Source of the DNA: Nonomuraea terrae
GTDB taxonomy: Bacteria; Actinomycetota; Actinomycetes; Streptosporangiales; Streptosporangiaceae
NCBI RefSeq assembly: GCF_004348995.1
Contig: NZ_SMKQ01000023.1
Coordinates: 1-64,000 of the forward strand
Length of the DNA stretch: 64,000 bases
Reading direction: 5' to 3'
Of this stretch, positions 1 through 14,371 are shown in pieces. Position numbers and translations under genes: made by a program. Position 1 is the first letter of the stretch. Each line of letters opens with the position of its first letter. The notes under the pieces are model-generated. The model did no database searches and had not been told where the DNA came from. It saw only the letters and a program-made list of their open reading frames with translations.

Positions 1-30
1 GCGTCAGCGTCAGAGGTGTATCAGAGACAG
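1..30. other. Residual sequencing-adapter sequence at contig edge
   Basis: The first 30 bases match the 3' end of the Nextera/Tn5 read-1 adapter at 26 of 30 positions by eye (mismatches at 1, 4, 15 and 22) and end in the mosaic-end tail CAGAGACAG. Coding sequence of eccC begins right after it at base 31. This is best explained as untrimmed library adapter with errors, not genomic DNA. The adapter identity rests on my memory of the adapter sequence. Confidence 0.85.
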
Positions 31-3000
31 CCCCCGCGCGGCGAGATCCTGCTCGAATCTCCCCCCGAGATTCCCGAGGTCCAGAGCCAGGGCTTCACCG
101 CGGTACTCACCTACCTGCCCATGGTCGCCGGGGCCGCGGCGATGGGCCTGATGTTCACCGTGGGCGGCAACAGCAACCCGATCATGTACGTGGCCAGCGG
201 CCTGTTCGCGCTGTCCATGGTGGGGATGACGATCGGCCAGCTGGCGCGCCAGGCAGGCGAGCGCAAGTACCGGCTCAACGGCGCCCGCCGCGACTACTTC
301 CGTTACCTGAGCCAGGTGCGCAAGCGGGCCAGGCGCGCGGCCCGGCAGCAGCGTGAGGCCCTCGAGTGGAGCGGGCCCGAGCCCGATGCCCTGTGGTGGA
401 TCGCCATGGGCCCGCGGCTGTGGGAGCGCCGTCCCCGCGACGAGGACTTCGCCACCGTACGGCTCGGCACCGGCGTCCAGAAGCTCGCGATCCAGATCAT
501 CCCGCCGGACTCCAAGCCGGTGGAGGACCTGGACGCGCTGTCGGCCGGCGCGTTGCGCAGGTTCGTCAGGGCACATTCGACGGTCGCCGAGCTGCCCGTC
601 GCCGTCGCGCTCGGCTCGTTCGCCAGGATCCGGCTGACCGGCGAACCCGGGGCCATGCGTGACCTCGTCCGCGCCATGATCGCCCAGCTCACCGTGTTCC
701 ACTGTCCCGACGACATGCGGATCATGGTGTGCGCCGACGTGGAGACCATGCCCCAGTGGGAGTGGGTGAAGTGGCTGCCCCACGCGCTGCATCCGGAGGA
801 GGTGGACGCGGCGGGCGCCGTACGGCTCATGACGGAGAACCTGGGCGAACTGGACCGGCTGGTCGGCGACGAGCTCAAGGAGCGCGCCCGCTTCCGGCCC
901 GGCGCGCCGGCCGACGCACTGCCGTACCACGTGCTCATCGTGGACAACGGGCACGTGCCGCACGACTCCCAGCTCGGCAGCGACGCCATCCACGGCGTGA
1001 CCGTGATCGACCTGTCCGGCTCGACCGCCGACGTCGAGGAGCAGAACACGCTGCGGTTGGACGTGCGGTCCGACGGGTTCCACATGGTGAAGCTCGACCA
1101 CGCGGGCAAGGAGCACCTCACGCGGCTCGGAGACCCCGACCGGCTCGACTACATGCGGGTGGAGGGCCTGGCCCGCCAGCTGGCGCCGCTGCGCGCCTCC
1201 GCCGCCGTCGCCGGGGAGAGCGAGGACGTGCTCGCCGCCAACACCACGCTGACCGAGCTGCTCGGCGTTGGCGACCCGGCCCAGCTTGACCCGTCCGTGA
1301 CCTGGCGGCCGCGGGCCGGCCGCAACAGGCTGAGGGTCCCCATCGGCCTGGGCGGCGACGGACGCGTGGTGGAGCTGGACATCAAGGAGTCCGCGCAGGG
1401 CGGCATGGGGCCACACGGCCTGGTCATCGGCGCCACGGGCTCCGGCAAGAGCGAGCTGCTGCGCACGCTGGTGCTGGGCCTCGCCATCACGCACTCCTCG
1501 GAGACCCTCAACTTCGTCCTGGTCGACTTCAAGGGCGGCGCGACGTTCCTCGGGCTGGAGTCGCTCTCCCACGTCTCGGCGGTCATCACCAACCTGGAGG
1601 ACGAGCTGCCGCTGGTCGACCGCATGCACGACGCCCTGCACGGCGAGATGGTGCGCCGGCAGGAACTGCTGCGCTCGGCGGGCAACTACGCGTCCCTGCG
1701 CGACTACGAGCGGGCCAGGGAGCAGGGGGCCAACCTGGCGCCGTTGCCCACGCTCTTCGTGGTGCTGGACGAGTTCAGCGAGCTGTTGTCCGCCAAGCCC
1801 GAGTTCATCGAGCTGTTCGTGATGATCGGTCGGCTGGGCCGGTCGCTGGGCGTGCACCTGCTGCTGGCCTCGCAGCGCCTGGAGGAGGGACGGCTGCGCG
1901 GCCTGGACACCCACCTGTCGTACCGGATCGGTCTGCGCACCTTCTCGGCCATGGAGAGCCGGGTCGTCCTGGGTGTGGCCGACGCGTACGAGCTGCCCTC
2001 CGCACCCGGCAACGGATATCTCAAGTTCGACACCACCGGCATGACCAGGTTCAAGGCCGCGTACGTGTCGGGCCCCTACCAGCCCGACTCCCGCCACTCC
2101 AGCTCCGACGACGGCCACACCGTCCTGCGGCAGGTCGTGGAGTACGGCCCGACCTACGTGCCGCTCCCGGTCGTCAAGGAACCGGCCGGCGAGGAGCGGA
2201 AGGCAGAGGTCGACGAGCGGGCCGCGCAGAAGAACAGCCTGCTCGACATCGTGGTGCGCCGCCTGGCCGGGCAGGGCCCCGCCGCGCACCGCATCTGGCT
2301 GCCGCCGCTCAGCGAGCCGCCCACGCTCGCCCACCTGCTGCCGGCGCTCTCCGTCACGCCGGAGTACGGCCTGTCCACGACCGGCTGGGACGGACGGGGC
2401 AGGCTGCACGCCGTCATCGGCATCATCGACAAGCCGTTCGAACAACGCCGCGATCCGTACTGGGTGGATCTGTCCGGCGCGGCCGGGCACGTAGGCGTGG
2501 CGGGCGGCACCCAGAGCGGCAAGACCAACGTGCTGCGCACTCTGATCACCAGCATGGCCCTCACCCACACGCCGCGGGAGGCGCAGTTCTACTGCCTCGA
2601 CTTCGGTGGCGGCGGCCTGGCGGCCCTGGAAGGGGTGCCGCACGTCGGCGGCGTGGCCACCAGGCTGGACGCCGACCGGGTACGCAGGACCGTCGCCGAG
2701 GTCTCGGGGCTGCTGCGGCAACGCGAGCGCGAGTTCGCCGACCGCGGCATCGAGTCCGTCGCCACGTACCGGCGCATGGTCGCCGACGGCAGCCTGCCGA
2801 GCGACGGCTGGGGAGATGTGTTCCTGGTCATCGACGGCTGGCTGACGATCAGGCAGGAGTTCGAGGGACTGGAGGCCGTGATCACCGACCTGGCGGCGCG
2901 CGGGCTCGGTTACGGCATCCACGTGGTGGCCGCGACCAACAAGTGGTCGGAGTTCCGGGCGGGCATCAAGGACCTGTTCGGCACCAGGATCGAGTTCAAG

Positions 3001-3966
3001 CTGGGCGACCCGTACGAGTCGGAGATCAGTAGAAAGGCCTCGGTCGCCGTGCCCGAGGGGGTGCCGGGCCGGGGCCTGACCAGGGACGGCATGCACTTCC
3101 TCGCCGCGCTGCCGAGGATCGACGGGCGGACCACCGCCGACGACGTGGCCGAGGGCGTGCGGTCGCTGGTCGAGCTCGTCCGCGAGTCGTGGCAGGGGCC
3201 CGCGGCACGGCCCGTGCGCCTGCTGCCGTCGCTGCTGCCTGCCGCCTCCCTGCCGGTGCCCGAGCAGACGGGCCCTGGACGGATCGCGATCGGCATCGAC
3301 GAGGACTCCCTCTCCCCGGTCATGGTCGACTTCGACAACGATCCGCACTTCATCGTGTTCGGCGACAACGAGTGCGGCAAGTCCAACGTGCTCAGGCTCG
3401 TCATGGAGGGCGTGGTGGCGAGGAGAACGCCGCGCGAGGCCATGATGATCGTGATCGACTACCGGCGCTCGCTGCTGGACACCGCCGTGACCGACCACCG
3501 CATCGGCTACGCCGCCTCCAGCACCGCCGCCGTCGAGCTGATCCAGGAGGCCCGCTCCGCGCTGCTCAAGCGGCTGCCACCGGCCGACCTCACGCCGGAG
3601 CAGCTGCGCGCGCGCAGCTGGTGGCAGGGCTCCGACCTCTACATCGTGGTCGACGATTACGACCTCGTGGCGACCTCCAGCAATCCGCTGGCGCCCCTGG
3701 CCGACCTGCTGCCCCAAGCCCGCGACATCGGCCTGCACCTGGTGCTGGCCCGACAGAGCGGAGGCGCCAGCCGGGCCATGTACGATCAGGCCGTCCAGCG
3801 CATGAAGGAGATGGCCAGCCCGGCCCTGATCATGTCGGGCAACCGCGAGGAGGGGCCGCTCTTCGGCAACATCCGGCCGCAGGCACTGCCGGTGGGCCGT
3901 GGTTTCTACGTCGACCGGAGATCCGGCTCGCGTCTGGTCCAGACGGCGTTCCTGGAGCCGTCGTGA
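31..3966 (+). CDS. eccC: Type VII secretion FtsK/SpoIIIE-family ATPase EccC, 5'-truncated
   Basis: EccC is the membrane ATPase motor that recognises and drives WXG100-type substrates through the type VII secretion channel. About 1,311 residues are present. The conserved GEILLESPPEIPE segment near the start is followed by two membrane segments (about 25-44 and 50-68 of the genomic part), a cytoplasmic stalk, and three ATPase domains. Their Walker A motifs are GATGSGKS (near nt 1429), GGTQSGKT (near 2503) and GDNECGKS (3361). Each has a Walker B-like stretch (VVLDEF, LVIDGW, IVVDDY). Both halves are in one polypeptide, unlike the split EccCa/EccCb of some mycobacterial loci. The natural start lies beyond the contig edge; the apparent GTG at 16 is adapter. 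Downstream genes encode likely substrates. Confidence 0.95.
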   Translation, partial: PPRGEILLESPPEIPEVQSQGFTAVLTYLPMVAGAAAMGLMFTVGGNSNPIMYVASGLFALSMVGMTIGQLARQAGERKYRLNGARRDYFRYLSQVRKRARRAARQQREALEWSGPEPDALWWIAMGPRLWERRPRDEDFATVRLGTGVQKLAIQIIPPDSKPVEDLDALSAGALRRFVRAHSTVAELPVAVALGSFARIRLTGEPGAMRDLVRAMIAQLTVFHCPDDMRIMVCADVETMPQWEWVKWLPHALHPEEVDAAGAVRLMTENLGELDRLVGDELKERARFRPGAPADALPYHVLIVDNGHVPHDSQLGSDAIHGVTVIDLSGSTADVEEQNTLRLDVRSDGFHMVKLDHAGKEHLTRLGDPDRLDYMRVEGLARQLAPLRASAAVAGESEDVLAANTTLTELLGVGDPAQLDPSVTWRPRAGRNRLRVPIGLGGDGRVVELDIKESAQGGMGPHGLVIGATGSGKSELLRTLVLGLAITHSSETLNFVLVDFKGGATFLGLESLSHVSAVITNLEDELPLVDRMHDALHGEMVRRQELLRSAGNYASLRDYERAREQGANLAPLPTLFVVLDEFSELLSAKPEFIELFVMIGRLGRSLGVHLLLASQRLEEGRLRGLDTHLSYRIGLRTFSAMESRVVLGVADAYELPSAPGNGYLKFDTTGMTRFKAAYVSGPYQPDSRHSSSDDGHTVLRQVVEYGPTYVPLPVVKEPAGEERKAEVDERAAQKNSLLDIVVRRLAGQGPAAHRIWLPPLSEPPTLAHLLPALSVTPEYGLSTTGWDGRGRLHAVIGIIDKPFEQRRDPYWVDLSGAAGHVGVAGGTQSGKTNVLRTLITSMALTHTPREAQFYCLDFGGGGLAALEGVPHVGGVATRLDADRVRRTVAEVSGLLRQREREFADRGIESVATYRRMVADGSLPSDGWGDVFLVIDGWLTIRQEFEGLEAVITDLAARGLGYGIHVVAATNKWSEFRAGIKDLFGTRIEFKLGDPYESEISRKASVAVPEGVPGRGLTRDGMHFLAALPRIDGRTTADDVAEGVRSLVELVRESWQGPAARPVRLLPSLLPAASLPVPEQTGPGRIAIGIDEDSLSPVMVDFDNDPHFIVFGDNECGKSNVLRLVMEGVVARRTPREAMMIVIDYRRSLLDTAVTDHRIGYAASSTAAVELIQEARSALLKRLPPADLTPEQLRARSWWQGSDLYIVVDDYDLVATSSNPLAPLADLLPQARDIGLHLVLARQSGGASRAMYDQAVQRMKEMASPALIMSGNREEGPLFGNIRPQALPVGRGFYVDRRSGSRLVQTAFLEPS

Positions 3967-4015: not shown

Positions 4016-4321
4016 GTGAGTTTCGTGGACGTGCACGTCCAGGCGCTGGAGGAGTGCGGACGGCAGAGTCTCAGGGTGCGCAACATGCTCGACGTCGACG
4101 ACGCGTTCGTCGGCGGAGACGGCCCTCGGCCGGGCGAGGCCAGAGCCGCCGTCTTCGGCGACATCGAGGGCGCCGGCTCCCTGGCCGCCAAGGTGAACGC
4201 CGTCTGGAGGTCGATCGAGGAGGATCTCGGCGCAGGACGCAACCGCCTGAAGAACGTCCACGACGCACTCGGCGAGGTCGCCGGCAACTTCAGGTCAGCG
4301 GAAGGAGCCAACGGCGGATGA
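4016..4321 (+). CDS. Small ESX-like helical protein of the T7SS locus
   Basis: A 101-residue protein starting at a GTG 49 bases after eccC. No WXG motif is obvious, but the size, charged amphipathic helices (VWRSIEEDLGAGRNRLKNVHDAL in two parts) and position directly before a WXG100 protein suggest a partner in an ESX-type heterodimer. The stop overlaps the next start as ATGA, so the two are probably translationally coupled. The 5' extension of this frame into the eccC end was rejected because the GTG start gives a protein of ESX size. Function is inference from context. Confidence 0.7.
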   Translation: MSFVDVHVQALEECGRQSLRVRNMLDVDDAFVGGDGPRPGEARAAVFGDIEGAGSLAAKVNAVWRSIEEDLGAGRNRLKNVHDALGEVAGNFRSAEGANGG

Positions 4322-5436
4322 GCCTCGTATCGACGCTGGCCTCGCTGAAGCGGAAGCTCGACGGCGACCCACAGGAGATCAGGAACATCGCCGCCGCCCT
4401 GCGCACGGTCGCCGAGCACGTCGCCACGTCCGCCGGCAGGCTCACCGCGTATGTCGACGAGGTGGACAACGCCTGGCAGGGCCGCTCGTCGGAGGCCTTC
4501 GCCACGTACATGACCGCCTACCCCCGCGCCGGGCAGAGCCTGAAGGGGGCGATCACCGCCTGCGCCTCGGCTCTCGACACCGCGGCGGGGGCGCTGGAGA
4601 CCGCCTACAACACGGTCGACGGTCTCCACCGGGACGCGATGGCGGAGGAGAACGCGTACAAGCGGAACCATCCCGACGCCTCGCAGGCCGACATCGACGG
4701 CCACCTCGGCGGCGTGGCGTCGCTCAGCGGAGCCGCCGGCAAGGCCCGCCAGGCAGTGACCGACGCGGAGACCGCCCTGAGCACGGCCGTCCGAGCCCTC
4801 GACCGCCAGCTCGGGGAGGACGGCTTCCGCTTCTTCCACGGCATCCGCCAGCCCGGCGGCGCCGACTTCCAGTCCGGTGAGCACGCGGTCGACTGGAAGA
4901 AGGCGGCCGGTTACCGGCCCACCACGACGCTCGCCTCGACGGGCGCGCCCGGCGGCGGCGCTGGCGGTGGCGGCGCGGGCGGTGGCGGCGGTGTCGGGCC
5001 GGCCTCGTCGTACGGGAACGCCCCGGCGCCCAAGGCGCAGGTCGTCGAGTGGATCAAACAGGCGCTCACCGTCATCACGTCGCCCGGGATGGCCGCGATC
5101 ATGCGCCGGCGCGGTCTGGACGTGAGCGATCTGGACCCGAACGATCCCGTCGACATCCAGCGCATCTGGACGGTCATCTACCACGAGTCGGGCGGCAATC
5201 CCAACGCCGTCAACAACTGGGACGTCAACGCCAGGAACGGTGTGCCGTCCCAGGGCCTCATGCAGACCATCCCTCCGACGTTCAACGCGCATGCCCTGCC
5301 CGGCTACGGCGGGATCCGGGAGCCGGTGGACAACATCATCGCCGGAGTCCTGTACACCTACAGCCGCTACGGCGATCTCGCGCACCACCCCGGCATCCAA
5401 TCGCTGGAGAGAGGCGGCCCCTACCGGCCCTACTAA
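4318..5436 (+). CDS. WXG100 domain fused to lytic transglycosylase (SLT) domain
   Basis: A 372-residue protein. Residues 1-100 look like a WXG100 module (NAWQGRSSEAF near residue 50), followed by a second helical region, a glycine-rich linker (GAGGGGAGGGGG, about residues 205-225) and a C-terminal SLT-type lytic transglycosylase domain of about 130 residues. That domain contains the putative catalytic glutamate in YHESGGNPNAVN and the motif GVPSQGLMQTIPPTF. There is no signal peptide, so export through the adjacent EccC machine is the natural inference, after which the enzyme would cut peptidoglycan glycan strands. The start ATG overlaps the preceding stop. Confidence 0.88.
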   Translation: MSLVSTLASLKRKLDGDPQEIRNIAAALRTVAEHVATSAGRLTAYVDEVDNAWQGRSSEAFATYMTAYPRAGQSLKGAITACASALDTAAGALETAYNTVDGLHRDAMAEENAYKRNHPDASQADIDGHLGGVASLSGAAGKARQAVTDAETALSTAVRALDRQLGEDGFRFFHGIRQPGGADFQSGEHAVDWKKAAGYRPTTTLASTGAPGGGAGGGGAGGGGGVGPASSYGNAPAPKAQVVEWIKQALTVITSPGMAAIMRRRGLDVSDLDPNDPVDIQRIWTVIYHESGGNPNAVNNWDVNARNGVPSQGLMQTIPPTFNAHALPGYGGIREPVDNIIAGVLYTYSRYGDLAHHPGIQSLERGGPYRPY

Positions 5437-5559: not shown

Positions 5560-6216
5560 GTGTCGACTGATCCTCCATCCGCCACGCCATCCCCCTCGGG
5601 CGGCCCCTCGTCGGCCTACACGCCCACCGCGAGCCCGTCCCCCACCGGTGGGACGCAGTCACCCGCTCCGACGCCGTCGTCCAGCCCGGCGCCGAGCACG
5701 TCCCCGACACCTAACCCCGCGCCCACATCGGGCGCGCCGGAGCCGTCGACGACTCCCACGCCGCTGCCCAGCATGGTGAGCCCGTGCCCACACGTCCCGC
5801 CGTGCCCGCCGCCGACGTGCCTGCCGCCGTCGCTGCGGCCCTCGTCTGCGCCCACCACCTCGAACTCGCCAGCCCAACCGTCCAGAGCGGGCAGCAGTTC
5901 GGGCGACCGCTCGCAGCTGCCCGGTTACGAGGTCGAGGCGGGTCACCTCGCCACGTTCTCCGGGACCATGCAGAGCACGGCGACGGGGGTGAACCTGGCC
6001 GGGAACCGGACCCCGCGCTTCGAGGGCTGGAACCTGGCGCCGCTCGCCGGCATGCCGCAGATCGGCCTGAGGTTCGTCGGCCGCCTCAACGCCATCGCCG
6101 ACACCTGGCGCGACAGCACCGGCATCCTGGGCAACGTCCTCAGGGACGACAGCGACAAGATCATCAAATCGGCGGCCAACTACCGGGCCGCCAACTTGGA
6201 CAGCGGAAAGCCTTAG
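5560..6216 (+). CDS. Pro/Ser/Thr-rich protein with ESX-like C-terminal domain
   Basis: A 218-residue protein from a GTG start. About the first 120 residues are low-complexity proline, serine and threonine with a few cysteines (PCPHVPPCPPPTC). The last 95 residues are ordinary globular or helical sequence with FEGWNLAPLAGMP and TWRDSTGILGNVL, compatible with a T7SS substrate-like fold. It follows a 123-base AT-richer gap (5437-5559) that may hold a promoter. Three bases separate it from the next gene. No family is recognised with certainty; a secreted T7SS substrate or accessory is inferred from context. Confidence 0.6.
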   Translation: MSTDPPSATPSPSGGPSSAYTPTASPSPTGGTQSPAPTPSSSPAPSTSPTPNPAPTSGAPEPSTTPTPLPSMVSPCPHVPPCPPPTCLPPSLRPSSAPTTSNSPAQPSRAGSSSGDRSQLPGYEVEAGHLATFSGTMQSTATGVNLAGNRTPRFEGWNLAPLAGMPQIGLRFVGRLNAIADTWRDSTGILGNVLRDDSDKIIKSAANYRAANLDSGKP

Positions 6217-6219
6217 AGG

Positions 6220-7077
6220 ATGTCGACCCCTCCGAACCAGCCGCCGAAGCTGCTCGTGCCCGGCCGGCCCACCGTTCCCCAGAGCACCCAGCAGTTCTAC
6301 CTCACCAACGCCAGCGGGACGGTGACGAAGACCGTGCCCGTGCCTCCGGCCGCCGCGACCCGTACCGATCCCGGCTTCTTCAAGCGCCTCGTCGGCCAGC
6401 TCAACCCGCTGCGGCAGACCACCAGGACGGCGACCGTGATGTCCGGGCTCGGTGTGGCCGCGCTGGCCCTCGACGTGGCGGCCACGGTCAACCTCGGCAA
6501 TCCGTTCCTGTTCTACGACCGCCGCGAGACCTGGAAGGAGATGTCGGGCTCGCTGGAGGGCAACCGCTCCAATCTGTGGCGTGGCTACTTCGACGACATC
6601 GCACCGAACTGGAAGGGCCACGCAGCCGAAATGCTCCAGCAGTACGTGCGATTCAACGTCAACGGCCTGTTCAGCCAGCTCGGTAAGGTCAGCGACGAGA
6701 TGAGCGGCGCGATGCACAACCAGTACAAAGAGGTGCTGGAGTACGACTTGTCGGTGTTCGGCCTCTACGCCGGCTCGGCACCGATCCTGCGCACGCTGGC
6801 GAGCATGAGCGCGAATCCGGTCGCGCGCGCCGCCCTGATGACCCAGGTCGGCGTCTTCACGACCGCGCTCGGCAACCTGGTCAAGCAATTCACCGACATC
6901 TACAACTCCTACGAGGGCGACCTCAACAAGCTGGAGCTGAAGCTGAACGACCTGAGGGGCGCCTTCTACCAGTCCGGCGACCCCGCCCAAGGAGCACGCC
7001 GGCTCAACCTCTCTCCCACCATCGCCGACCCGAAGAGCGTGAAGAACATGTGGATTCCCGCGGGGGCGGCGGAATGA
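6220..7077 (+). CDS. WXG-type T7SS-associated protein with central hydrophobic segment
   Basis: A 285-residue protein. The N-terminus is proline-rich, followed by a hydrophobic stretch (VMSGLGVAALALDVAATV, about residues 72-90) and then a helical region containing APNWKGHAAEML, which resembles the WXG turn of ESX proteins. A second hydrophobic stretch lies near 185-215, and the C-terminus ends in NMWIPAGAAE. It probably belongs to the set of secreted or membrane-associated proteins of this T7SS locus. The stop overlaps the next start (ATGA). The exact family was not identified. Confidence 0.65.
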   Translation: MSTPPNQPPKLLVPGRPTVPQSTQQFYLTNASGTVTKTVPVPPAAATRTDPGFFKRLVGQLNPLRQTTRTATVMSGLGVAALALDVAATVNLGNPFLFYDRRETWKEMSGSLEGNRSNLWRGYFDDIAPNWKGHAAEMLQQYVRFNVNGLFSQLGKVSDEMSGAMHNQYKEVLEYDLSVFGLYAGSAPILRTLASMSANPVARAALMTQVGVFTTALGNLVKQFTDIYNSYEGDLNKLELKLNDLRGAFYQSGDPAQGARRLNLSPTIADPKSVKNMWIPAGAAE

Positions 7078-7454
7078 GCGAGGTCAGCGCCTTCGCCGAA
7101 GGCAGGGAGAGCGATGTCGCCGGCCTGCTGCGCCACGTGAATGACTGGGCGGGCGTGCTGAACGAGAGGCTGACGACGCTGGCCCGCGAGCACCTGGACG
7201 GGACGGACCGCACAGGCGCCGTACGTGCCCGGGTCTCCGGCGCCGGCCGGCTGGTCGGGCTGACCATCGACCCGCGCGGCCTGCGCGACCTCGACAACGT
7301 CCAGCTCGCGCAGGCCGTCATGGAAGCGATCGCCGCCGCGCGCTCCGCCATGGGCGACCGGCTGACGGAGCTGACCGCTGATCCGGCCGGACCGGACCTG
7401 CCCGATGGCGACCCGTTGGCCCCCCACGTCGAGCGCCTGCTGAGGGAGGGCTGA
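7074..7454 (+). CDS. YbaB/EbfC-like small protein
   Basis: A 126-residue protein with the layout of the YbaB/EbfC family: an N-terminal helix, a short beta segment (VRARVSGAGRLVGLTIDPRGL) and a C-terminal helix (QLAQAVMEAIAAARSAM). Family members bind DNA or act as small dimeric partners. Actinobacterial T7SS loci often carry one, with a role that is not established to my knowledge. The start was chosen because ATG overlaps the upstream stop. It forms a pair with the following gene. Confidence 0.65.
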   Translation: MSEVSAFAEGRESDVAGLLRHVNDWAGVLNERLTTLAREHLDGTDRTGAVRARVSGAGRLVGLTIDPRGLRDLDNVQLAQAVMEAIAAARSAMGDRLTELTADPAGPDLPDGDPLAPHVERLLREG

Positions 7455-7456
7455 CC

Positions 7457-7753
7457 TTGCATGAGATGGACGAGGCCACGGCGCGCCTGGAACACCTCGT
7501 CTCCACAGCCAGGCGGGCCGAGGAGATGGCGGCCGAGTGGAGCACCCGCCGGCACGTCGGCCGCGCCGACGAGGGCAGGATCGTGGCCACGACCGATGCC
7601 GTCGGCGCCCTGGTCACGCTGGAGATCAGCCCGCTGAGCAGGAAACGACTGGATGCCAGACGGTTGGCCGACGAGATCCTGGCCGCCGTCACGAAGGCCG
7701 AGCAGGCCGCAGCGGCATCCCAGGACGAGCTCCTGCGCGGCCTCCACTCCTGA
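7457..7753 (+). CDS. Second YbaB/EbfC-like small protein
   Basis: A 98-residue protein with the same helix-beta-helix plan as its upstream neighbour (GRIVATTDAVGALVTLEISP followed by a long helix). The start is probably TTG at 7457, six bases after a GGAGGG ribosome-binding site. An in-frame ATG at 7466 is the alternative. It is the last gene of the + strand T7SS operon and ends just before a strong hairpin terminator. Heteromeric pairing with the previous protein is plausible but not shown. Confidence 0.6.
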   Translation: MHEMDEATARLEHLVSTARRAEEMAAEWSTRRHVGRADEGRIVATTDAVGALVTLEISPLSRKRLDARRLADEILAAVTKAEQAAAASQDELLRGLHS

Positions 7754-7822: not shown

Positions 7823-10066
7823 TCAACCGCAGTTGGCCCAGCTCACCATGCCGGTACCACCGGTGCTCGTACTGCCCTCGAAGCGGACGCACTTGCCCTT
7901 GCCGGGCAGCTTCACGGGGCCCGCGTAGAACTCGTACATGCCGATGTCGGTCTTGCGGGGCAGGCCCTGCACCTCGATCGTGGCGGTCACCTTGGTCGGC
8001 TTGCCCACGTCCGCCGTCTTCATGGTGACCACGCAGTTCTCGCCTGTGGAGGCGTTGTAGAGCTGGACGGTCTCGCCACCGGCGAACGGCATCGACCGCT
8101 GGACCTGGAAGCCGTTGCCGCAGACCTGGACCGGCGAGTGCGGGTTGCGCATCGGCGCGGTCGTCGCCGGCTTCGTGGGCGCCGGCTTCGTGGGCGCCGG
8201 CTTCGTGGGCGCCGGCTTCGTGGGCGCGGGCTTCACCACGGTCGTGGTGGGCCTCGCGGTCGGCTTCGCGGTCACGGTCGGCTTCGCGGTCACGGTCGGC
8301 TTCGCGGTCACGGTCGGCTTCGCGGTCACGGTCGGCTTCGCGGTAGCGGTGGGCGCCGGCTTGGCCGGGGTCTGCGTCTGCGGCGGCATCGCCGTCACCG
8401 TCGCCGTCGGGGACGGTGTCACCGTCACCGTCGGGGTCGGTGTCACCGTCACGGTCACCGTGGGCGCGGGGGTAGCCGTAGGCGTGGGGGTCGGCTCGGA
8501 GGTGCCCGACGGATGGACGACGGGTTCCTCACTGGCCGACGGCGTAGGCGTCGCCGAGCCTGTGGCGGTCACCGTCACCGTGGGCTTGCCCGTCTCCGTC
8601 TGCACGAGCGTGGGCTGCGTGCTCGGCAGCACGTACTGGGTGACCTGCGGCGGGTTCGGCACGGTGCTGAGCTCGGGCGGAGTCGGCGTCGTCCAGTCCG
8701 ACGGCAGCACCATCGGGCCCACGTCGTCCGGGTCCGCGGTCGAGGCCCACGGCACGGTGACGTCGGGCTGGGTCTGCTGCGACTGGCCCGTGGCAGGCTG
8801 CCCGGGCTGATCGGGCCGCCCCGGTTCCGCGGGCTGACCCGGCCGATCGGGCTGGCCGACGCCGTTGCCCGTCCCGGCCATGCCCGCGCCACCATCGGAC
8901 GGGCTCGCCCCCACCTGCAGGGCGACGGGCTCGAAACGCTGCGTGGAGGCGTACTCGTTGGCGCCCCACAGGCCGACGCCGGACAGCAGCGCCAGCGCGC
9001 CGACCGCGGCGGCCAGTCCGATCGGGAACGGCCTGCGCGGCCCACGTGAGGACACCGTCTGCCCCTGGAGCGGCTGCTGCGGCGCGTCCTGCGACGGACC
9101 CCATGTGGGTCCCACAGGCGGTGGCGCCACGCCCTGCACCGGCCCCGGGCCGGCCTGCATGGGAGCGTTGTGCGGAGGGCCGCCAGGAACGGGTTCCTGC
9201 GGCAGCGGCCCCCACTGCTGGGTCGGGACTATCGGCGGCATCGGCGGCATCGGCGGCACGCCGGTGACCGGTACGCCCTCGATCGGCGGGACCGGCGGCT
9301 TTTGCGCCATGACCGCGGCGTCCCCGCGCTTGTTGCCGAGGAGCTGCAGCAGAGCCATGTACGTAGTCGGACGCCGCCTGACGTCCTTGTCCAGAGCCAG
9401 CAGCACCACCCGCCGCAGCGGGTCAGCCAGGTCGCCGACCTCGGGCTCCCGCTCCAGCACCGCGCCGGCCTCGTGGCCGAACGGCGGCTTGCCGGTCGCG
9501 GCGAAGACGACCAGCGCTGCCCAGGAGAACACGTCGGCGGACGGACCGTAGCCCAGCCCGTTGATCTGCTCCGGCGCCCGGTAGCCGATCTCGCCGACGG
9601 GCTCGCCGAGATCGGCGTCCGTCACGCGAGGGCCGTCCGAGCCCATGATGATGTTGTGGGGGGTGAGCCCCCGGTGCGTGATGCCCGCCAGATGAACCGC
9701 GGTCAGCGCGGTGAGCACGCCGGCGGCCATCCGCTCCAGCGCGTCGCCCCGGAGCGGGCCGTCCTGAGCCACGACCTCGGCGAGAGTGCGTCCCTCGACG
9801 TGCTCGCGCACCACGTACGACTGGTCGCCGTGCTTGCCCGCCTCCAGCGTCCTGGCGACGTAAGAGCTGGACACGCGTTGCACTCCGGCGAGACGAGCGA
9901 CATCGTCATCGTCCGATTCCGGAGCGGGCAATAATTTGATCACACGTAACGGCGCGTCGTCGGACTCCCTGCCGAGCAAGGCCGGTCCACGCGGACCTTC
10001 GGCCAGTCGCCCGCAGATGACATACGCGCCCAGGTTTTCTGGATCACCCGGCCGCTGGGGGTGCAT
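7823..10066 (-). CDS. Membrane pseudokinase with SapA-like extracellular domain (copy 1)
   Basis: A 747-residue protein. Residues 1-250 have a Hanks-type Ser/Thr kinase fold: ATP-site lysine K44 in RVIKLL, APEQ motif and DVFSWA helix. The catalytic HRD is HRG (131-133), the following lysine is Thr, and the glycine loop is degraded (LAEGPRGPALLG). TDADLG keeps a DFG-like Asp. A membrane segment (IGLAAAVGALALLSGVGLWG) comes near residue 355. A Pro/Thr stalk with tandem repeats follows, and then a roughly 100-residue C-terminal domain resembling Streptomyces spore-associated protein A (CGNGFQVQ, NCVVTMKT, YAGPVKLPGKGKCVRF). The start at 10066 has a GAAGGG site seven bases upstream and matches copy 2. 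It lies downstream of the full mycosin. Probably a signalling scaffold and not an active kinase. Confidence 0.85.
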   Translation of the reverse strand: MHPQRPGDPENLGAYVICGRLAEGPRGPALLGRESDDAPLRVIKLLPAPESDDDDVARLAGVQRVSSSYVARTLEAGKHGDQSYVVREHVEGRTLAEVVAQDGPLRGDALERMAAGVLTALTAVHLAGITHRGLTPHNIIMGSDGPRVTDADLGEPVGEIGYRAPEQINGLGYGPSADVFSWAALVVFAATGKPPFGHEAGAVLEREPEVGDLADPLRRVVLLALDKDVRRRPTTYMALLQLLGNKRGDAAVMAQKPPVPPIEGVPVTGVPPMPPMPPIVPTQQWGPLPQEPVPGGPPHNAPMQAGPGPVQGVAPPPVGPTWGPSQDAPQQPLQGQTVSSRGPRRPFPIGLAAAVGALALLSGVGLWGANEYASTQRFEPVALQVGASPSDGGAGMAGTGNGVGQPDRPGQPAEPGRPDQPGQPATGQSQQTQPDVTVPWASTADPDDVGPMVLPSDWTTPTPPELSTVPNPPQVTQYVLPSTQPTLVQTETGKPTVTVTATGSATPTPSASEEPVVHPSGTSEPTPTPTATPAPTVTVTVTPTPTVTVTPSPTATVTAMPPQTQTPAKPAPTATAKPTVTAKPTVTAKPTVTAKPTVTAKPTARPTTTVVKPAPTKPAPTKPAPTKPAPTKPATTAPMRNPHSPVQVCGNGFQVQRSMPFAGGETVQLYNASTGENCVVTMKTADVGKPTKVTATIEVQGLPRKTDIGMYEFYAGPVKLPGKGKCVRFEGSTSTGGTGMVSWANCG
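8167..8226 (-). repeat. Four tandem 15-bp repeats in the pseudokinase stalk
   Basis: Four identical copies of CCGGCTTCGTGGGCG on the + strand encode repeated PAPTK units on the - strand, part of the extracellular Pro/Thr stalk. This is coding repeat, not CRISPR. Confidence 0.95.
8261..8350 (-). repeat. Five tandem 18-bp repeats in the pseudokinase stalk
   Basis: Five copies of CGGCTTCGCGGTCACGGT on the + strand, the last with a few changes, encode TVTAKP units on the - strand. They suggest slippage-driven length variation of the extracellular stalk. Confidence 0.95.
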
Positions 10067-10101
10067 CTGCATTCCCTTCGCTTTTGCACGATCTTGAAGG
10101 G

Positions 10102-10145
10102 ACATTCAACCAAATCAGTCACATCTGCATCAGTGGTTTCGGACA
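10102..10145 (-). promoter_or_regulatory. Conserved 44-bp element upstream of pseudokinase 1
   Basis: This non-coding stretch matches 13702-13745 at 36 of 44 positions by eye, with no gaps. It sits 35 bases before its start codon, against 34 bases for the other copy. Shared blocks include ACATTCAACCA, GTCACAT, GCATCAG and GTTTCGG (+ strand). It is probably a shared promoter or operator, or untranslated leader; the sigma factor is unknown. Confidence 0.55.
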
Positions 10146-10168
10146 CGGGTTGATATTTCACTACCACG

Positions 10169-11317
10169 TCACGTTCCGGACACGCGGCCGGCGCGCCATC
10201 CCCGCCGCCGCCCGAGGGGGACGAGGAGCGCGAGCGCGCCGACCACCATGACCGTGATCAGCACGCCGACGCCCACGGCCATGGAGACGTCGACGGCACG
10301 CTGGTCGCGCGGCGGCGCCTTGGCGATCGCGCCCGGAGGGAGCGCGGGTTGCGGCGGCTCGGCGACGACCGGCGCGCTGGCCTCCTCGTAGGGCAGCACC
10401 GCCGTGAGCGCGAGCAACGGGTTCACCATCCCGGCGCCGGCGCCCGCGCCGGTGCCGCCGTCCGCGGTGGCGATGATGCGACGGCGCACCTGGTCCTGCG
10501 TGAGCTTGGGAAAGCGGGCCCGTACCAGCGCTGCCGTGCCGGCCACGTACGGCGTGGCGAAGCTCGTGCCCTCCAGCCCGCGCATGTACCCGCGGCCGGG
10601 CCACGGCGCGGTGATGTCCACGCCGGGCCCCAGCACGCCCACGGGGGTGGCGGCGTTGGAGGAGTCGGCGCGGCGGCCGTCCGGACCGGCCGCGCCAACG
10701 GCCAGCACGCCCTCGTAGGCGGCGGGATAGGCGGGCACGTCCTCGTCGTCGGGGCCCGTGACGTTGCCCGCCGCGGCGACCACGACGACGTCCCGGTCGA
10801 GCGCGCGCTGAACGGCCGCCCTCAGCGCCGGCTGGTCGGAGGCGCGTACGGAGATGTTGATCACCTCGGCGCCCGCCGCGACGGCGTCGTCGATCCCGTT
10901 GACCAGTTTGGCGACGTCACCCTCGGTCTTGTTGCTCTGCTTGATCACCACGATCTCGGCCTGCGGCGCGACTCCGTGGAAGGGGACTCCGGCGTAGTAG
11001 CGGGCGCTGACGATGCCCGCCACGGCGGTGCCGTGACCCACGCAGTCGCGGTAGTTGGTGTGCGTCTCGTCGATGATTTTGGAGATCTGCATCTGTGGGT
11101 GGTAGTCCACACCGCTGTCCACGATGGCGACGGTGACCCCCGCACCCTGGGTGAGGCGCCAGGCGTTCTTGATGTCGAGCCGTTTCTGCGCCCACGGCTC
11201 ACTGGCGGGCAGCTTCAGCAGGCCCTTCTTCGGATTGCAGTCCTCGTCCGCGGCCATGGCGGGTGCGGCGACGAGTTGCAGGGCGAGCGCGCTCGCCACG
11301 AGGGCGCGACCAATCAT
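10169..11317 (-). CDS. mycP: Mycosin, membrane-anchored subtilisin-like protease of the T7SS
   Basis: A 382-residue S8-family protease. It has a signal peptide (RALVASALALQLVAAPAMA) and the intact triad motifs AIVDSGVD (Asp), GHGTAVAG (His) and GTSFATP (Ser), with the oxyanion Asn in AAGNVTG. A proline-rich linker and a C-terminal membrane helix (VGVGVLITVMVVGALALLV) follow. Mycosins are anchored outside the membrane and are needed for a stable, active T7SS complex. The start at MIGRAL was preferred over the upstream GTG at 11353 because the truncated second copy starts identically. A conserved leader (11361-11396) precedes it and pseudokinase 1 follows. Confidence 0.92.
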   Translation of the reverse strand: MIGRALVASALALQLVAAPAMAADEDCNPKKGLLKLPASEPWAQKRLDIKNAWRLTQGAGVTVAIVDSGVDYHPQMQISKIIDETHTNYRDCVGHGTAVAGIVSARYYAGVPFHGVAPQAEIVVIKQSNKTEGDVAKLVNGIDDAVAAGAEVINISVRASDQPALRAAVQRALDRDVVVVAAAGNVTGPDDEDVPAYPAAYEGVLAVGAAGPDGRRADSSNAATPVGVLGPGVDITAPWPGRGYMRGLEGTSFATPYVAGTAALVRARFPKLTQDQVRRRIIATADGGTGAGAGAGMVNPLLALTAVLPYEEASAPVVAEPPQPALPPGAIAKAPPRDQRAVDVSMAVGVGVLITVMVVGALALLVPLGRRRGWRAGRVSGT

Positions 11318-11360
11318 GGCCGAAAAGCGTAGCTTGCCGGAAAGAACCGGCACGGGCAGT

Positions 11361-11396
11361 CCGGTGATCAGCGGAAGAAGCCCTGGCGCCTTCGCC
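11361..11396 (-). repeat. Conserved leader of the duplicated mycosin module
   Basis: These 36 bases match 14045-14080 at 32 positions by eye. Both copies lie upstream of a mycosin start and contain CGGAAGAAGCCC on the + strand. At the other copy this segment forms half of a terminator hairpin; here only one arm remains. It marks the 5' edge of the duplicated unit. Confidence 0.7.
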
Positions 11397-11426
11397 GACT
11401 CGTCGTGTCACGGCCTCTGGCGGGGT

Positions 11427-11459
11427 CGGCGTGGCCCAGGCAGAGCCTGGGCCACGCCG
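11427..11459 (-). terminator. Hairpin terminator after pseudokinase 2
   Basis: A perfect 15-bp stem (CGGCGTGGCCCAGGC with its complement) and an AGA loop, located 33 bases past the pseudokinase 2 stop. It separates the two mycosin-pseudokinase units. Confidence 0.85.
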
Positions 11460-11492
11460 GCCACGGATCCGAGGGGCCTTCTCCGGCGGGGT

Positions 11493-13667
11493 TCAGCCGC
11501 AGTTGGCCCAGCCGGTGCTCGTGCTGCCCGAGCCGGCGCTGCCGGACACGCGCACGCACTGGCCCTTGGCGGGCAGCTTGACCGGGCCGGCGTAGTACTG
11601 GAAGCTGCCGCTGTCCGACTGGCTCCCGCCGCCCTGCACCTCCAGCGTGACGCTGACGGAGGTGCTCTTGCCGACGTTCGCGGTCTTCATGGTGACCGCG
11701 CAGTTCTGTCCGGTGCCGTTGTTCCACAGCTGGTACGTCACACCGCCGGAGAAGGAGCTGGAACGCTGGACCACGAAGCCCGACCCACACACCTGGGTGG
11801 GCGTGTGCGGGTTCTTGACCGGCGCGGCGGCCGCCGTCGGCTTGGCGGTGGTCTTCGTCGGCGTCGGGGCCGGCTTGGCGGTCGTCCTCGTGGGCGTGGG
11901 TTTGGCGGTCGTCGGGGTCGGGCGTGCGCTGGTCCTGGTGGGCTGCGGCTCCCGCGTCGGGGTCGTCCGCCGCGTGGGCGTCCGGCTCGCAGGCACGGTC
12001 TTGGTCACCGTCGCCTGGGGCGAGCTCTGCTTCTTGGCCTTCGCGGTCGGCCGCGCGGTGCTCACCGACGGCGTGGGCACCGCGACCGGCTGCTTCGGCA
12101 GCGGCGCCGGGGTCGCGGGCACGCTCGGCACGGAGGTCAGCTCGGGCACCACCGGAGAGGCCGGCGTCCATTCCGACGGCAGCTCCATCGGGCCGACGTC
12201 CTGGTCAGGGCTGATGGTGCCCCAGGGCACGACGGCCTCGGGCTGCGCGTCGCCGGCCTGATCGGAGCCCTGCGGTCCCTGGGCCGGCGCGGTGCCCACC
12301 GGCGCCGGGATCCCGCCCCGGTCGGCCTGCGCCGCGGCGGAGTCGACCTGCTGGAGCTCGACGTATCTGGTGGCGCCCCACAGGCCGACGGCCGAGACGA
12401 GCGCGACCACGCCGACTCCGGCGACCACCATCACGGGGAAACCCCGACGCGGGGGCTGGGCAGGGTGACCGGGCGGCCTACGCTCGTCCCTGACGGCGTT
12501 CGGCGGCTGCGGAGCGCCCTCCGGCGGCCCCCACATCGGCCTCTCTGGCCGCTGCGGCGGCCCTGCGAGGGGGACGTCGTTCACCGGCCCCTGCGGCGGC
12601 GCCCCGTGGGGCGGCACGTGCGGCGGCGGTCCCTGCGTGAACGGCCTCTGCGCAGGAGCCGTCGGCCCCTGACCCGGCACGCCACCGTTCGGGCCCTGGG
12701 CCGGACGCCACATCGGCCCTTGGGCCGGCACACCGGAAACCGGACCCCCCGGCACCGGACGCGCACCGGGATCCCCCGCCACCGGCCCCGGAACGGGACC
12801 GCCCAGGACCGGACCGCCGGGAACCGGGCCCTGGAGCGGCCCCGGCGCCGGGGCATCGGGGGATGATCTCGGGAGGGGGACGCCCTCGACGGGCTCCTGG
12901 GCGGCGGCGGGCGAAGGAGTATCCCCGCGGTGGTCCCCGAGCATCCGCATGAGCGCGTTGTAAGCGGTCGGCCGCGCCCTCGCCTCCTTTGCCAGGGCCG
13001 CGAGCAGCACCTTGCGCATCGGCTCGGGCTCCATGCCGACCTCGGGCTCGGCGTCGAGCACACCGTCCCGCCCGGCGAACGGCGGCTTCCCCGTCCCGGC
13101 GAACACGACGGTCGCCGCCCAGGCGAACACGTCCGCGTACGGCCCGTACTGGAGGCCCTTCATCTGCTCGGGCGCCTGGTAGGCGGCCTCTCCCGCGGGC
13201 TCGCCGAGGGCGGCGTCGGTCACCCGGGGGCCGTCGGGCCCGAGGATCACGTTGTGCGGGGTGAGCGAGCCGTGCGTGAGGCCCGCGAGGTGGACGGCCG
13301 ACAGAGCGGTCAGCACGCCGACCGCGACCCGTTCCAGCGCGTCCCCGCTCAGCGGCCCGTCGTCGGCGACCGTCTGCGCCAGGCTCTTGCCCTCGACGTG
13401 CTCGCGGACGACGTACGGCCGGCCCTCCAGGAGTCCCGCGTCCAGGACCCTGGCGACGTACGAGCTGGAGACCCGCTTCGCGCCGAGGAGCCGGGCGGGC
13501 GCGTCAGGGCCGGGATCCGGTTCGGCGGGGAGCACCTTGACGGCGACGGTGGGCGCCTCGGCCGACTCGCGTCCGAGGAAGACCTCGCCCCTCGGCCCCT
13601 CTCCCAGCAGCCCGACAATCTCGAAAGCACCGATCCGCTCTGGATCCTCAGGTCGCAACGGGTGCAT
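11493..13667 (-). CDS. Membrane pseudokinase with SapA-like extracellular domain (copy 2)
   Basis: A 724-residue paralogue of the protein at 7823-10066 with the same order of parts: kinase fold, Pro-rich linker, membrane helix (FPVMVVAGVGVVALVSAVGL), Pro/Thr stalk and SapA-like domain (CGSGFVVQ, NCAVTMKT, YAGPVKLPAKGQCVRV). The ATP-binding half is better kept (LLGEGPRGEVFLG, VAVKVL with K44). However, HRD is HGS (132-134) and DFG is ALG in TDAALG, so both catalytic and metal-binding Asp are gone. The start at MHPLRP has a GGAAGG site seven bases upstream. It follows a truncated mycosin and ends at its own terminator. Unlike copy 1 its stalk has no perfect DNA repeats. Confidence 0.85.
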   Translation of the reverse strand: MHPLRPEDPERIGAFEIVGLLGEGPRGEVFLGRESAEAPTVAVKVLPAEPDPGPDAPARLLGAKRVSSSYVARVLDAGLLEGRPYVVREHVEGKSLAQTVADDGPLSGDALERVAVGVLTALSAVHLAGLTHGSLTPHNVILGPDGPRVTDAALGEPAGEAAYQAPEQMKGLQYGPYADVFAWAATVVFAGTGKPPFAGRDGVLDAEPEVGMEPEPMRKVLLAALAKEARARPTAYNALMRMLGDHRGDTPSPAAAQEPVEGVPLPRSSPDAPAPGPLQGPVPGGPVLGGPVPGPVAGDPGARPVPGGPVSGVPAQGPMWRPAQGPNGGVPGQGPTAPAQRPFTQGPPPHVPPHGAPPQGPVNDVPLAGPPQRPERPMWGPPEGAPQPPNAVRDERRPPGHPAQPPRRGFPVMVVAGVGVVALVSAVGLWGATRYVELQQVDSAAAQADRGGIPAPVGTAPAQGPQGSDQAGDAQPEAVVPWGTISPDQDVGPMELPSEWTPASPVVPELTSVPSVPATPAPLPKQPVAVPTPSVSTARPTAKAKKQSSPQATVTKTVPASRTPTRRTTPTREPQPTRTSARPTPTTAKPTPTRTTAKPAPTPTKTTAKPTAAAAPVKNPHTPTQVCGSGFVVQRSSSFSGGVTYQLWNNGTGQNCAVTMKTANVGKSTSVSVTLEVQGGGSQSDSGSFQYYAGPVKLPAKGQCVRVSGSAGSGSTSTGWANCG

Positions 13668-13701
13668 GCCCAAACCTTCCACCAGCAAAGCATGATCGGG
13701 C

Positions 13702-13745
13702 ACATTCAACCAGATATGTCACATAAGCATCAGGAGTTTCGGTCA
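13702..13745 (-). promoter_or_regulatory. Conserved 44-bp element upstream of pseudokinase 2
   Basis: Counterpart of the element at 10102-10145 (36 of 44 identical), ending 34 bases before its start codon. Its upstream end overlaps the stop of the truncated mycosin. Conservation here, while the mycosin between the copies decayed, suggests it is under selection. Confidence 0.55.
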
Positions 13746-14015
13746 TGCGCTGACATAGCCCGTGCCGGTGAGATCGGCCCGGCCGGCCAGGCGGATCTGG
13801 GGATGCTCCAGGTCGACGCCGCTGTCGATGACCGCGACGGTGACGCCCGCGCCGGTGGACAGCGGCCAGACGCGCTTGGGGTCGAGCCGTTTCTGCGCCC
13901 ACGACTCGCCGACCTGCATCGTGCCCCGGGGCGGCCGGCAGTTGTCGGGGGCGACGGCGGGCGCCAGCGGGACGTGCAGGGCGAGCGCGCTCGCCATGAG
14001 GGCGCGACCAATCAT
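13743..14015 (-). pseudogene. Truncated mycosin (second copy)
   Basis: Ninety residues that align with the start of the full mycosin: signal peptide (MIGRALMASALALHVPLAPA), ESWAQKRLDPKRVW, GAGVTVAVIDSGVDLEHPQI. The frame ends in GYVSA soon after the catalytic Asp region. The His and Ser motifs and the membrane anchor are absent, so it cannot be a protease. It sits where the full mycosin sits in the other module copy. A secreted fragment could still be made, but a degraded duplicate is the simplest reading. Confidence 0.85.
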
Positions 14016-14098: not shown

Positions 14099-14371
14099 TC
14101 ACTGCGTCGCGGACTCGATGTTCTGGCGGTACGTGCCGATGACGCGTGACGCCTCCCTGAGCTCGTCCGACATGCGCTGGAACGAGACCTGGTAGTTGTC
14201 CCACGCCTGCTTGAAACGCACGGCGCCCTGACCGGTCCACACCGTGCCGACCTTGGCGGCCTCCTTGCTGAGGGCGCCGATGACGGCCTGGACCGCCTCC
14301 GCCTGCCGGTCGAACTGGCTGGCCATCGCCGCCATCTCGGTCGGGTCGCCGCCTAGCATGCTCTGGCTCAT
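14099..14371 (-). CDS. WXG100 family ESX-type secreted protein
   Basis: A 90-residue protein with two helices joined by the WXG turn (GTVWTGQGAVRFKQAW, near residue 45), the standard size of EsxA/CFP-10-like T7SS substrates. A good GGAGG site precedes the ATG. It is the first gene of the - strand block leading into the mycosin and pseudokinase modules. A classical C-terminal YxxxD/E signal is not clear: the end reads GTYRQNIESATQ, where YRQNIE is close. Secretion through the local T7SS is inferred. Confidence 0.9.
   Translation of the reverse strand: MSQSMLGGDPTEMAAMASQFDRQAEAVQAVIGALSKEAAKVGTVWTGQGAVRFKQAWDNYQVSFQRMSDELREASRVIGTYRQNIESATQ

Follow-up and report, generated by a model that had tools for sequence, protein, structure and literature searches.

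The stretch of DNA analysed in this study (the window) covers the first 64 kb of contig C155 (NZ_SMKQ01000023.1) from the 9.69 Mb genome of Nonomuraea terrae, which is assembled in 469 contigs, and its subject is a pair of kinase-like membrane proteins encoded there within a type VII secretion system (T7SS) locus. The window holds the core of a T7SSa, namely EccC, a mycosin and WXG100. The ESX systems of mycobacteria belong to the T7SSa family of machines, and the T7SSb of Firmicutes depends on the pseudokinase EssB. On the minus strand the genes run in the order WXG100, mycosin remnant, pseudokinase 2, mycosin, pseudokinase 1 (Table 1), with the two kinase-like copies flanking the intact mycosin, which agrees with the T7SS context proposed for them in a first-pass annotation made from the DNA letters. 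Among named relatives, Nonomuraea aridisoli (L094) comes closest at this locus; identity is 91% for the pseudokinase 1 kinase domain and 95% for both the mycosin and EccC. The data reported here suggest that both copies belong to a conserved pseudokinase family whose members probably serve the secretion machine as structural elements or as sensors.

Both window proteins matched the Pfam Pkinase family over its cut-off (copy 1 at 4.5e-18 and copy 2 at 8e-16), and Pkinase also matched 44/44 family members scored. Each copy carries one hydrophobic helix, a Pro/Thr-rich stalk and a C-terminal domain that is 57% identical between the copies over 109 residues. The first-pass description of two open reading frames (ORFs) with a kinase fold, a membrane helix, a Pro/Thr stalk and a Cys-containing C-terminal domain was thus recovered by Pfam Pkinase and by inspection of the sequence. 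Exactly one hydrophobic helix separates the kinase-like and C-terminal domains in 65/66 family proteins, and the N terminus presumably lies inside the cell, as in the topology of EssB/YukC.

The catalytic state was read from 74 distinct family domains (90 rows with identical ones merged and the outlier L055 left out), with residue numbers such as D166 following the PKA convention. The catalytic loop reads HRGLTPHN in copy 1 and HGSLTPHN in copy 2, and the alignment agrees with the HRG and HGS noted earlier in place of HRD. The HRD Asp (D166) is present in 0/74 domains, its position being taken by Gly (55), Ser (14) or Ala (5), and the catalytic-loop Lys (K168) is present in 0/74 as well (Thr 67, Ser 6, Val 1). 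Between the DFG Asp and APE, 70 family domains span 10-18 residues, compared with about 22-26 in intact kinases; the first-pass annotation had mentioned neither the lost Lys nor this shortened activation loop. Other residues are retained, with the HRD His (H164) and the DFG Asp (D184) in 74/74 domains, the catalytic-loop Asn (N171) in 68 (Thr in 6), the beta-3 Lys in 64 (Arg in 10), and the P-loop glycines at three positions in 45, 63 and 67. The beta-3 Lys stands in both copies and is Lys44 when counted from the starts used earlier. The claim that copy 2 lacks the DFG Asp did not hold, as the aligned Asp is present in both copies (DADLG within VTDADLG in copy 1, DAALG within VTDAALG in copy 2). 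At the column taken for the alpha-C helix Glu occurs in 7/70 domains, and since the alignment is gappy there its loss is not claimed. In the family, then, the canonical residues for phosphotransfer are gone and most of those for nucleotide and Mg binding are kept, which would make its members pseudokinases.

A sequence error or local decay as the cause of the lost HRD is ruled out because none of the 74 distinct orthologous domains has the Asp; one mycosin-linked outlier, L055, keeps it. Compared with N. aridisoli, dN/dS was 0.19 and 0.39 for the kinase domains of copies 1 and 2, 0.21 and 0.22 for their C-terminal domains and 0.27 for the mycosin, and by these values both copies look constrained, copy 2 perhaps less. 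It is very improbable that the two copies are functionless, decaying relics of an active kinase. The lost catalytic residues, the higher dN/dS of the copy 2 kinase domain and the presence next door of a real relic, the mycosin remnant, would fit such decay, whereas the long open frames across eight genera, the invariance of D184 and H164, the low dN/dS of the C-terminal domains and a shortened loop common to all 70 domains speak against it.

A scan of a genome collection (84,980 species) with one pattern favouring HR[GS], which kept 80 of 85 relatives, gave 75 loci, of which 63 (L094-L156) hold family members and the other 12 hold kinases at 27-36% identity. Eight named genera are represented: Nonomuraea (including [Actinomadura] parvosata), Streptosporangium, Sinosporangium, Microbispora, Microtetraspora, Sphaerisporangium, Thermocatellispora and Planomonospora. 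Of 197 genomes of the class, four gave matches above 400 bits, and all four are from the same bacterial family as the window; the best match outside that family reached 232.6 bits, with at most 13 candidates scored per genome, and the remaining 26 loci from this search all read H-x-D. A mycosin was found in 61/63 family loci, and the two others (L117 and L125) have a kinase gene that reaches the end of its contig, so linkage to the T7SS is conserved in relatives. Measured between stop-to-stop frames, 64/70 kinase ORFs lie at most 330 bp from the mycosin. EccC was found within the available flank in 33/63 loci, and in three genomes (G096, G061 and G038) an EccB match lies 162-295 bp from the match to the pseudokinase C-terminal domain.

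Two further samples were independent of the HR[GS] pattern. The first started from the C-terminal domain and comprised 40 stretches from among the matches listed: 20 of its 21 mycosin-linked kinases lack the HRD Asp, and 14/14 kinases with no mycosin in the stretch examined are canonical, with Asp and Lys kept, the flank being short for some of them (for example L078 and L064, whose genes start about 1.2 kb from the contig end). The second started from mycosins in 61 genomes, taken from the top among the matches listed, and gave 25 EccC-type mycosins (29 table rows, less four from genomes outside the 61, namely G097, G081, G096 and G069). A kinase neighbour was present for 14 of these, and 13/14 such neighbours lack the HRD Asp. 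The mycosin profile was trained mostly on pseudokinase-linked mycosins, so that the difference in score between the groups does not count as independent evidence. Among 85 other mycosin-like proteases in the set, one has such a kinase neighbour and five have EccC in reach. Mycosin-like proteases were often seen in tandem, mostly with no EccC nearby (L176, L179, L183 and others). At L189 (G016), counted with the EccC-type mycosins that have no pseudokinase neighbour, the mycosin frame adjoining EccC is overlapped at its start by an intact Ser/Thr kinase whose ectodomain is different, another T7SS-linked membrane kinase.

EccB and EccD each scored over cut-off in 20/20 genomes, lying on other contigs (C259 and C272) in the window's own genome, and EccE did so in 0/20, with weak matches of at most 21.6 bits in 6/20. 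As a positive control, EccE exceeded its cut-off in 13/98 genomes of the class and in 0/6 of the window's family. Membership in T7SSa stands despite this absence because some ESX-4 variants also have no EccE, according to the available sections of PMC11217815. The mycosin abuts EccE or shares its open frame in 5/6 loci of one family (f4) and lies 0.4-3.2 kb from EccE in 8/8 loci read from other families; in the EccE-less systems the pseudokinase stands beside the mycosin. The data do not show that the pseudokinase replaces EccE, as family genomes with no pseudokinase (G066, G067 and G098), in which the mycosin adjoins EccC, also have no EccE over cut-off.

Co-divergence was assessed by pairwise distances in the 28/63 loci with one mycosin, AccA, EccC and a downstream pseudokinase. 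Distances between pseudokinases correlated with those between mycosins (r 0.73) and between EccC proteins (0.81), and mycosin with EccC (0.88); with the flanking AccA the correlations were 0.31 for the pseudokinase, 0.13 for the mycosin and 0.16 for EccC. In a partial Mantel test the pseudokinase-mycosin correlation given AccA was reached by 0/999 permutations. Close linkage and co-divergence with the mycosin would also fit a mechanism in which the mycosin cuts the Pro/Thr stalk (about 22% Pro and 19% Thr), presumably exposed on its own side of the membrane, when the machine is active, and the shed wall-side domain resets the kinase-like domain or signals through it. However, such a substrate role is unlikely, given that the pseudokinase co-diverges with EccC no less closely than with the mycosin and that copy 2 persists though its adjoining mycosin is only a remnant.

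In 8/8 loci with an EccC 83-95% identical to that of the window, the mycosin is 73-95% identical and the downstream pseudokinase is closer to copy 1, and in 25 loci with an EccC 74-80% identical the mycosins are 56-65% identical. This suggests at least two types of the locus, each tending to move as a whole. The mycosin remnant, which the first-pass annotation had passed over, is 87% identical to the mycosin of L130 and 74-82% identical to those of L112, L115, L122, L110 and L132, compared with 51% to the intact mycosin nearby. In its eight best-matching named loci (these six together with L119 and L123) the pseudokinase is closer to copy 2. No remnant was recognisable in the matching N. aridisoli stretch (L094), where the three plus frames were read. 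Copy 1 belongs to the resident mycosin/EccC type. Copy 2 most likely remains from a second pair, of the other type, in which the pseudokinase persisted and the mycosin decayed. Since the matches of the remnant sit with copy-2-like pseudokinases, the window would hold one full pair and the leftover of a second.

Table 1. Features of the T7SS locus in the window (positions counted from the first base of the window)
Feature	Position	Strand	Remark
EccC, T7SS motor ATPase (EccCa and EccCb domains)	16..3966	+	profile matches
WXG100 and SLT transglycosylase fusion, putative T7SS substrate acting on peptidoglycan	4054..5436	+	start uncertain
Pro/Thr-rich ORF	5560..6216	+	no family match; recurs in part of related loci
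ORF	6220..7077	+	no family match; recurs in part of related loci
YbaB/EbfC-like protein 1	7050..7454	+	
YbaB/EbfC-like protein 2	7457..7753	+	
Pseudokinase 1	7823..10105	-	760 aa
Pseudokinase 1, kinase-like domain	about 9314-10087	-	
Pseudokinase 1, VIK	9926-9943	-	
Pseudokinase 1, HRG loop	9653-9676	-	
Pseudokinase 1, DAD(LG)	9605-9619	-	
Pseudokinase 1, transmembrane (TM) helix	8963-9022	-	Pro/Thr stalk beyond
Pseudokinase 1, C-terminal 4-Cys domain	about 7826-8170	-	
Mycosin (S8 protease)	10169..11353	-	TIGR03921 262.9 bits, just under the curated cut-off of 278.75
Pseudokinase 2	11493..13709	-	738 aa; ATG start at 13667 in the first-pass annotation
Pseudokinase 2, VAVK loop	13527-13544	-	
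Pseudokinase 2, HGS loop	13251-13274	-	
Pseudokinase 2, DAA(LG)	13203-13217	-	
Pseudokinase 2, TM helix	12375-12434	-	
Pseudokinase 2, C-terminal 4-Cys domain	about 11496-11837	-	
Remnant of second mycosin	13743..14015	-	90 aa, N-terminal part only; five best matches among the mycosins compared at 74-87% identity
WXG100 protein	14099..14371	-	first gene of the minus-strand run

On the plus strand, the WXG100-SLT fusion adjoining EccC is likely a T7SS-exported peptidoglycan enzyme. The two adjoining YbaB/EbfC-like genes (7050-7753) recur in only part of the related loci. Scans for promoters and terminators gave nothing above chance.

The C-terminal domain contains four invariant Cys (40/40). 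The kinase domain matched Pkinase, but no curated family was found for the C-terminal domain: neither Pfam nor NCBIfam gave a match, and a search of PDB chains produced no meaningful E-value. The same 4-Cys domain forms the C terminus of M23 peptidases in the window's own genome (L076 and L077, on C266) and in four stretches with T7SS genes (L050, L055, L060 and L229, the last at L229:31957-32892). Two ORFs of about 172 residues (L079 and L080) consist largely of this domain. Its occurrence on M23 peptidases points to the cell wall and makes a wall ligand the likeliest partner. A plasmid search for the domain gave four records, including a copy in N. gerenzanensis that is not annotated there. 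On the Kitasatospora plasmid NZ_OX419520.1 (L230) a stand-alone copy of 363 bases bears the annotation serine/threonine protein kinase, which it probably inherited from the fused form.

The first-pass annotation had likened this domain to spore-associated protein A and proposed a link to sporulation. That link goes back to the label SapA (no SapA sequence or model was compared), and nothing found supports it. It is also quite unlikely that the pseudokinase is a wall-sensing regulator of T7SS gene expression or development and not a part of the machine. Such a regulator would suit the receptor-kinase-like layout, the small proteins with the same C-terminal domain, and the two genes of the DNA-binding YbaB family that stand beside pseudokinase 1 and in part of the related loci. 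However, the pseudokinase co-diverges with EccC and the mycosin, YbaB-like genes are missing from the maps of many loci (other regulators were not searched for), and the sporulation side of the proposal comes from the SapA label.

In a tree of 71 domains, built by a quick method with the HRD and activation-loop columns removed and several loci repeating first-set genomes left out, 43 pseudokinases fall on one side of one branch (SH-aLRT 98), which suggests a single origin of the family; the program warned of long branches, L055 among them. The window's genome keeps an intact sister kinase with the same C-terminal domain (L078), and a pseudokinase and an intact sister were both seen in six genomes (G000, G069, G003, G009, G012 and G028). 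Kinase-pseudokinase pairs are established in eukaryotes, and the pseudokinase could by analogy be an allosteric partner of the intact sister that brings it to the secretion machine, for which the six genomes with both proteins would speak. However, the sisters and the T7SS genes were found on separate stretches, and a partnership of this kind is considered improbable. The mycosin-linked L055 (G025) reads HHD and DHA for HRD and DFG, keeps a 24-residue activation segment and has lost the catalytic-loop Lys, and it may be an intermediate between receptor kinase and pseudokinase.

The family has the outline of EssB without matching the EssB family by sequence, and it is conserved and bound to T7SS loci. 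Membership in the EssB/YukC family was rejected, as Pfam, which includes a YukC model, gave no such family for any of the 44 members searched at E 0.1. In the available sections of PMC9600267 and PMC12599244, EssB/YukC of the T7SSb in Bacillota is described as having a cytoplasmic N-terminal kinase-like domain, one TM helix and an extracytoplasmic C-terminal domain (PMC9600267), with a shortened activation loop and a gene encoded with that of an EssC/EccC-type ATPase (PMC9600267, PMC12599244). The order of parts, the single TM helix, the shortened activation loop and the shared locus with a secretion ATPase are all found in the window family, and the first-pass statement that no described system has this architecture overlooked EssB/YukC with its same topology. 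The two differ in that YukC has an all-helical ectodomain whereas the window family has a 4-Cys domain and a Pro/Thr-rich stalk, and in that YukC is described as not binding ATP whereas the window family keeps the DFG Asp always and the catalytic-loop Asn mostly (PMC9600267).

Other kinase-like proteins provide partial parallels. TscD and TsdD of T7SSc and T7SSd are likewise TM proteins with an N-terminal kinase domain encoded in a T7SS cluster, according to the available sections of PMC11217815. Their C-terminal regions are predicted to be helical there, the active site of TscD is conserved whereas the catalytic residues of the window family are lost (PMC11217815), and the system of the window family, unlike theirs, has a mycosin, EccB and EccD. 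The ActPs1-3 and DYD families, as covered in the accessible text of PMC12599244, are also actinobacterial and commonly have TM regions; ActPs3 has an activation-loop deletion, comparable to the shortened loop here, and in DYD the Gly of DFG is replaced by an acidic residue, as in pseudokinase 1. Membership in ActPs2, which has Asn for the HRD Asp, a beta-3 Arg and a long activation-loop insertion (PMC12599244), was rejected, as the window family has Gly, Ser or Ala for the Asp, Lys at beta-3 in 64/74 domains and a shortened loop. ActPs3 loses all three motifs whereas the window family keeps the DFG Asp in 74/74, DYD has a beta-3 Arg whereas the window family mostly has Lys, and the same text mentions neither a mycosin partner nor such an ectodomain for ActPs or DYD (PMC12599244). 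Sequences of the family may already be contained in ActPs3 or DYD. The mycobacterial MviN pseudokinase (ActPs3) is also part of a membrane protein and a wall-related scaffold, but the protein concerned acts in peptidoglycan synthesis, its pseudokinase is deficient in ATP and Mg binding, and that text mentions no T7SS link for it (PMC12599244). In the open-licence literature on T7SS, mycosin, SapA and ESX-4 in actinomycetes, no title or abstract opening among the papers listed describes the family.

In weighing these results, our confidence is about evenly balanced that the pseudokinase family is a dedicated accessory component of the EccE-less T7SSa in part of the Streptosporangiaceae, with an EssB/YukC-like role that arose independently. 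The scaffold or sensor for secretion put forward in the first-pass annotation survives here as the best reading, one that we infer, and has shed its sporulation part. Several observations weigh against it. A pseudokinase neighbour is missing from 11/25 EccC-type mycosins (the contigs of L170 and L181 end close by, and L171 has a kinase reading HGD 1.8 kb from the mycosin) and from a 26th (G066, L282), so the pseudokinase is no obligatory core part. Linkage and the exchange of the whole module at once could also produce the co-divergence, and the small variation of AccA (mean distance 0.13) weakens it as control. No FHA domain was found in the window EccC (Pfam, E 0.01), which means that the EssB-EssC contact cannot simply be copied. 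Arg at beta-3 in 10/74 domains and the incomplete P-loop glycines indicate that nucleotide binding may not be general, and in L055, although linked to a mycosin, both the HRD Asp and an activation segment of 24 residues are retained.

If the pseudokinase is an accessory component of this kind, its kinase-like domain would lie in the cytoplasm, bind nucleotide as a structural switch and dock on the EccC/EccB/EccD machine, while the stalk would cross the wall and the C-terminal domain would bind a wall component. The protein would thereby tie the mycosin-capped channel to peptidoglycan and pass the state of the wall to the motor, an EssB/YukC-type role that would have been reached independently from a receptor kinase still intact in several of these genomes. 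In its fullest form, which is offered tentatively, the proposal would be that T7SSa evolved an EssB of its own: a nucleotide-binding, non-catalytic receptor kinase, paired with the mycosin in EccE-less systems, anchoring the channel in peptidoglycan through its 4-Cys domain and exchanged between species as one unit with EccC and the mycosin.

A second pseudokinase, recruited to T7SSa and without a sequence-family match to EssB, would point to a kinase fold next to the motor as a general T7SS solution to a problem such as coupling the ATPase to the wall. Because intact sisters with the same ectodomain occur in part of these genomes, and L055 may be an intermediate, the transition from receptor kinase to machine part lends itself to testing in harmless soil bacteria.

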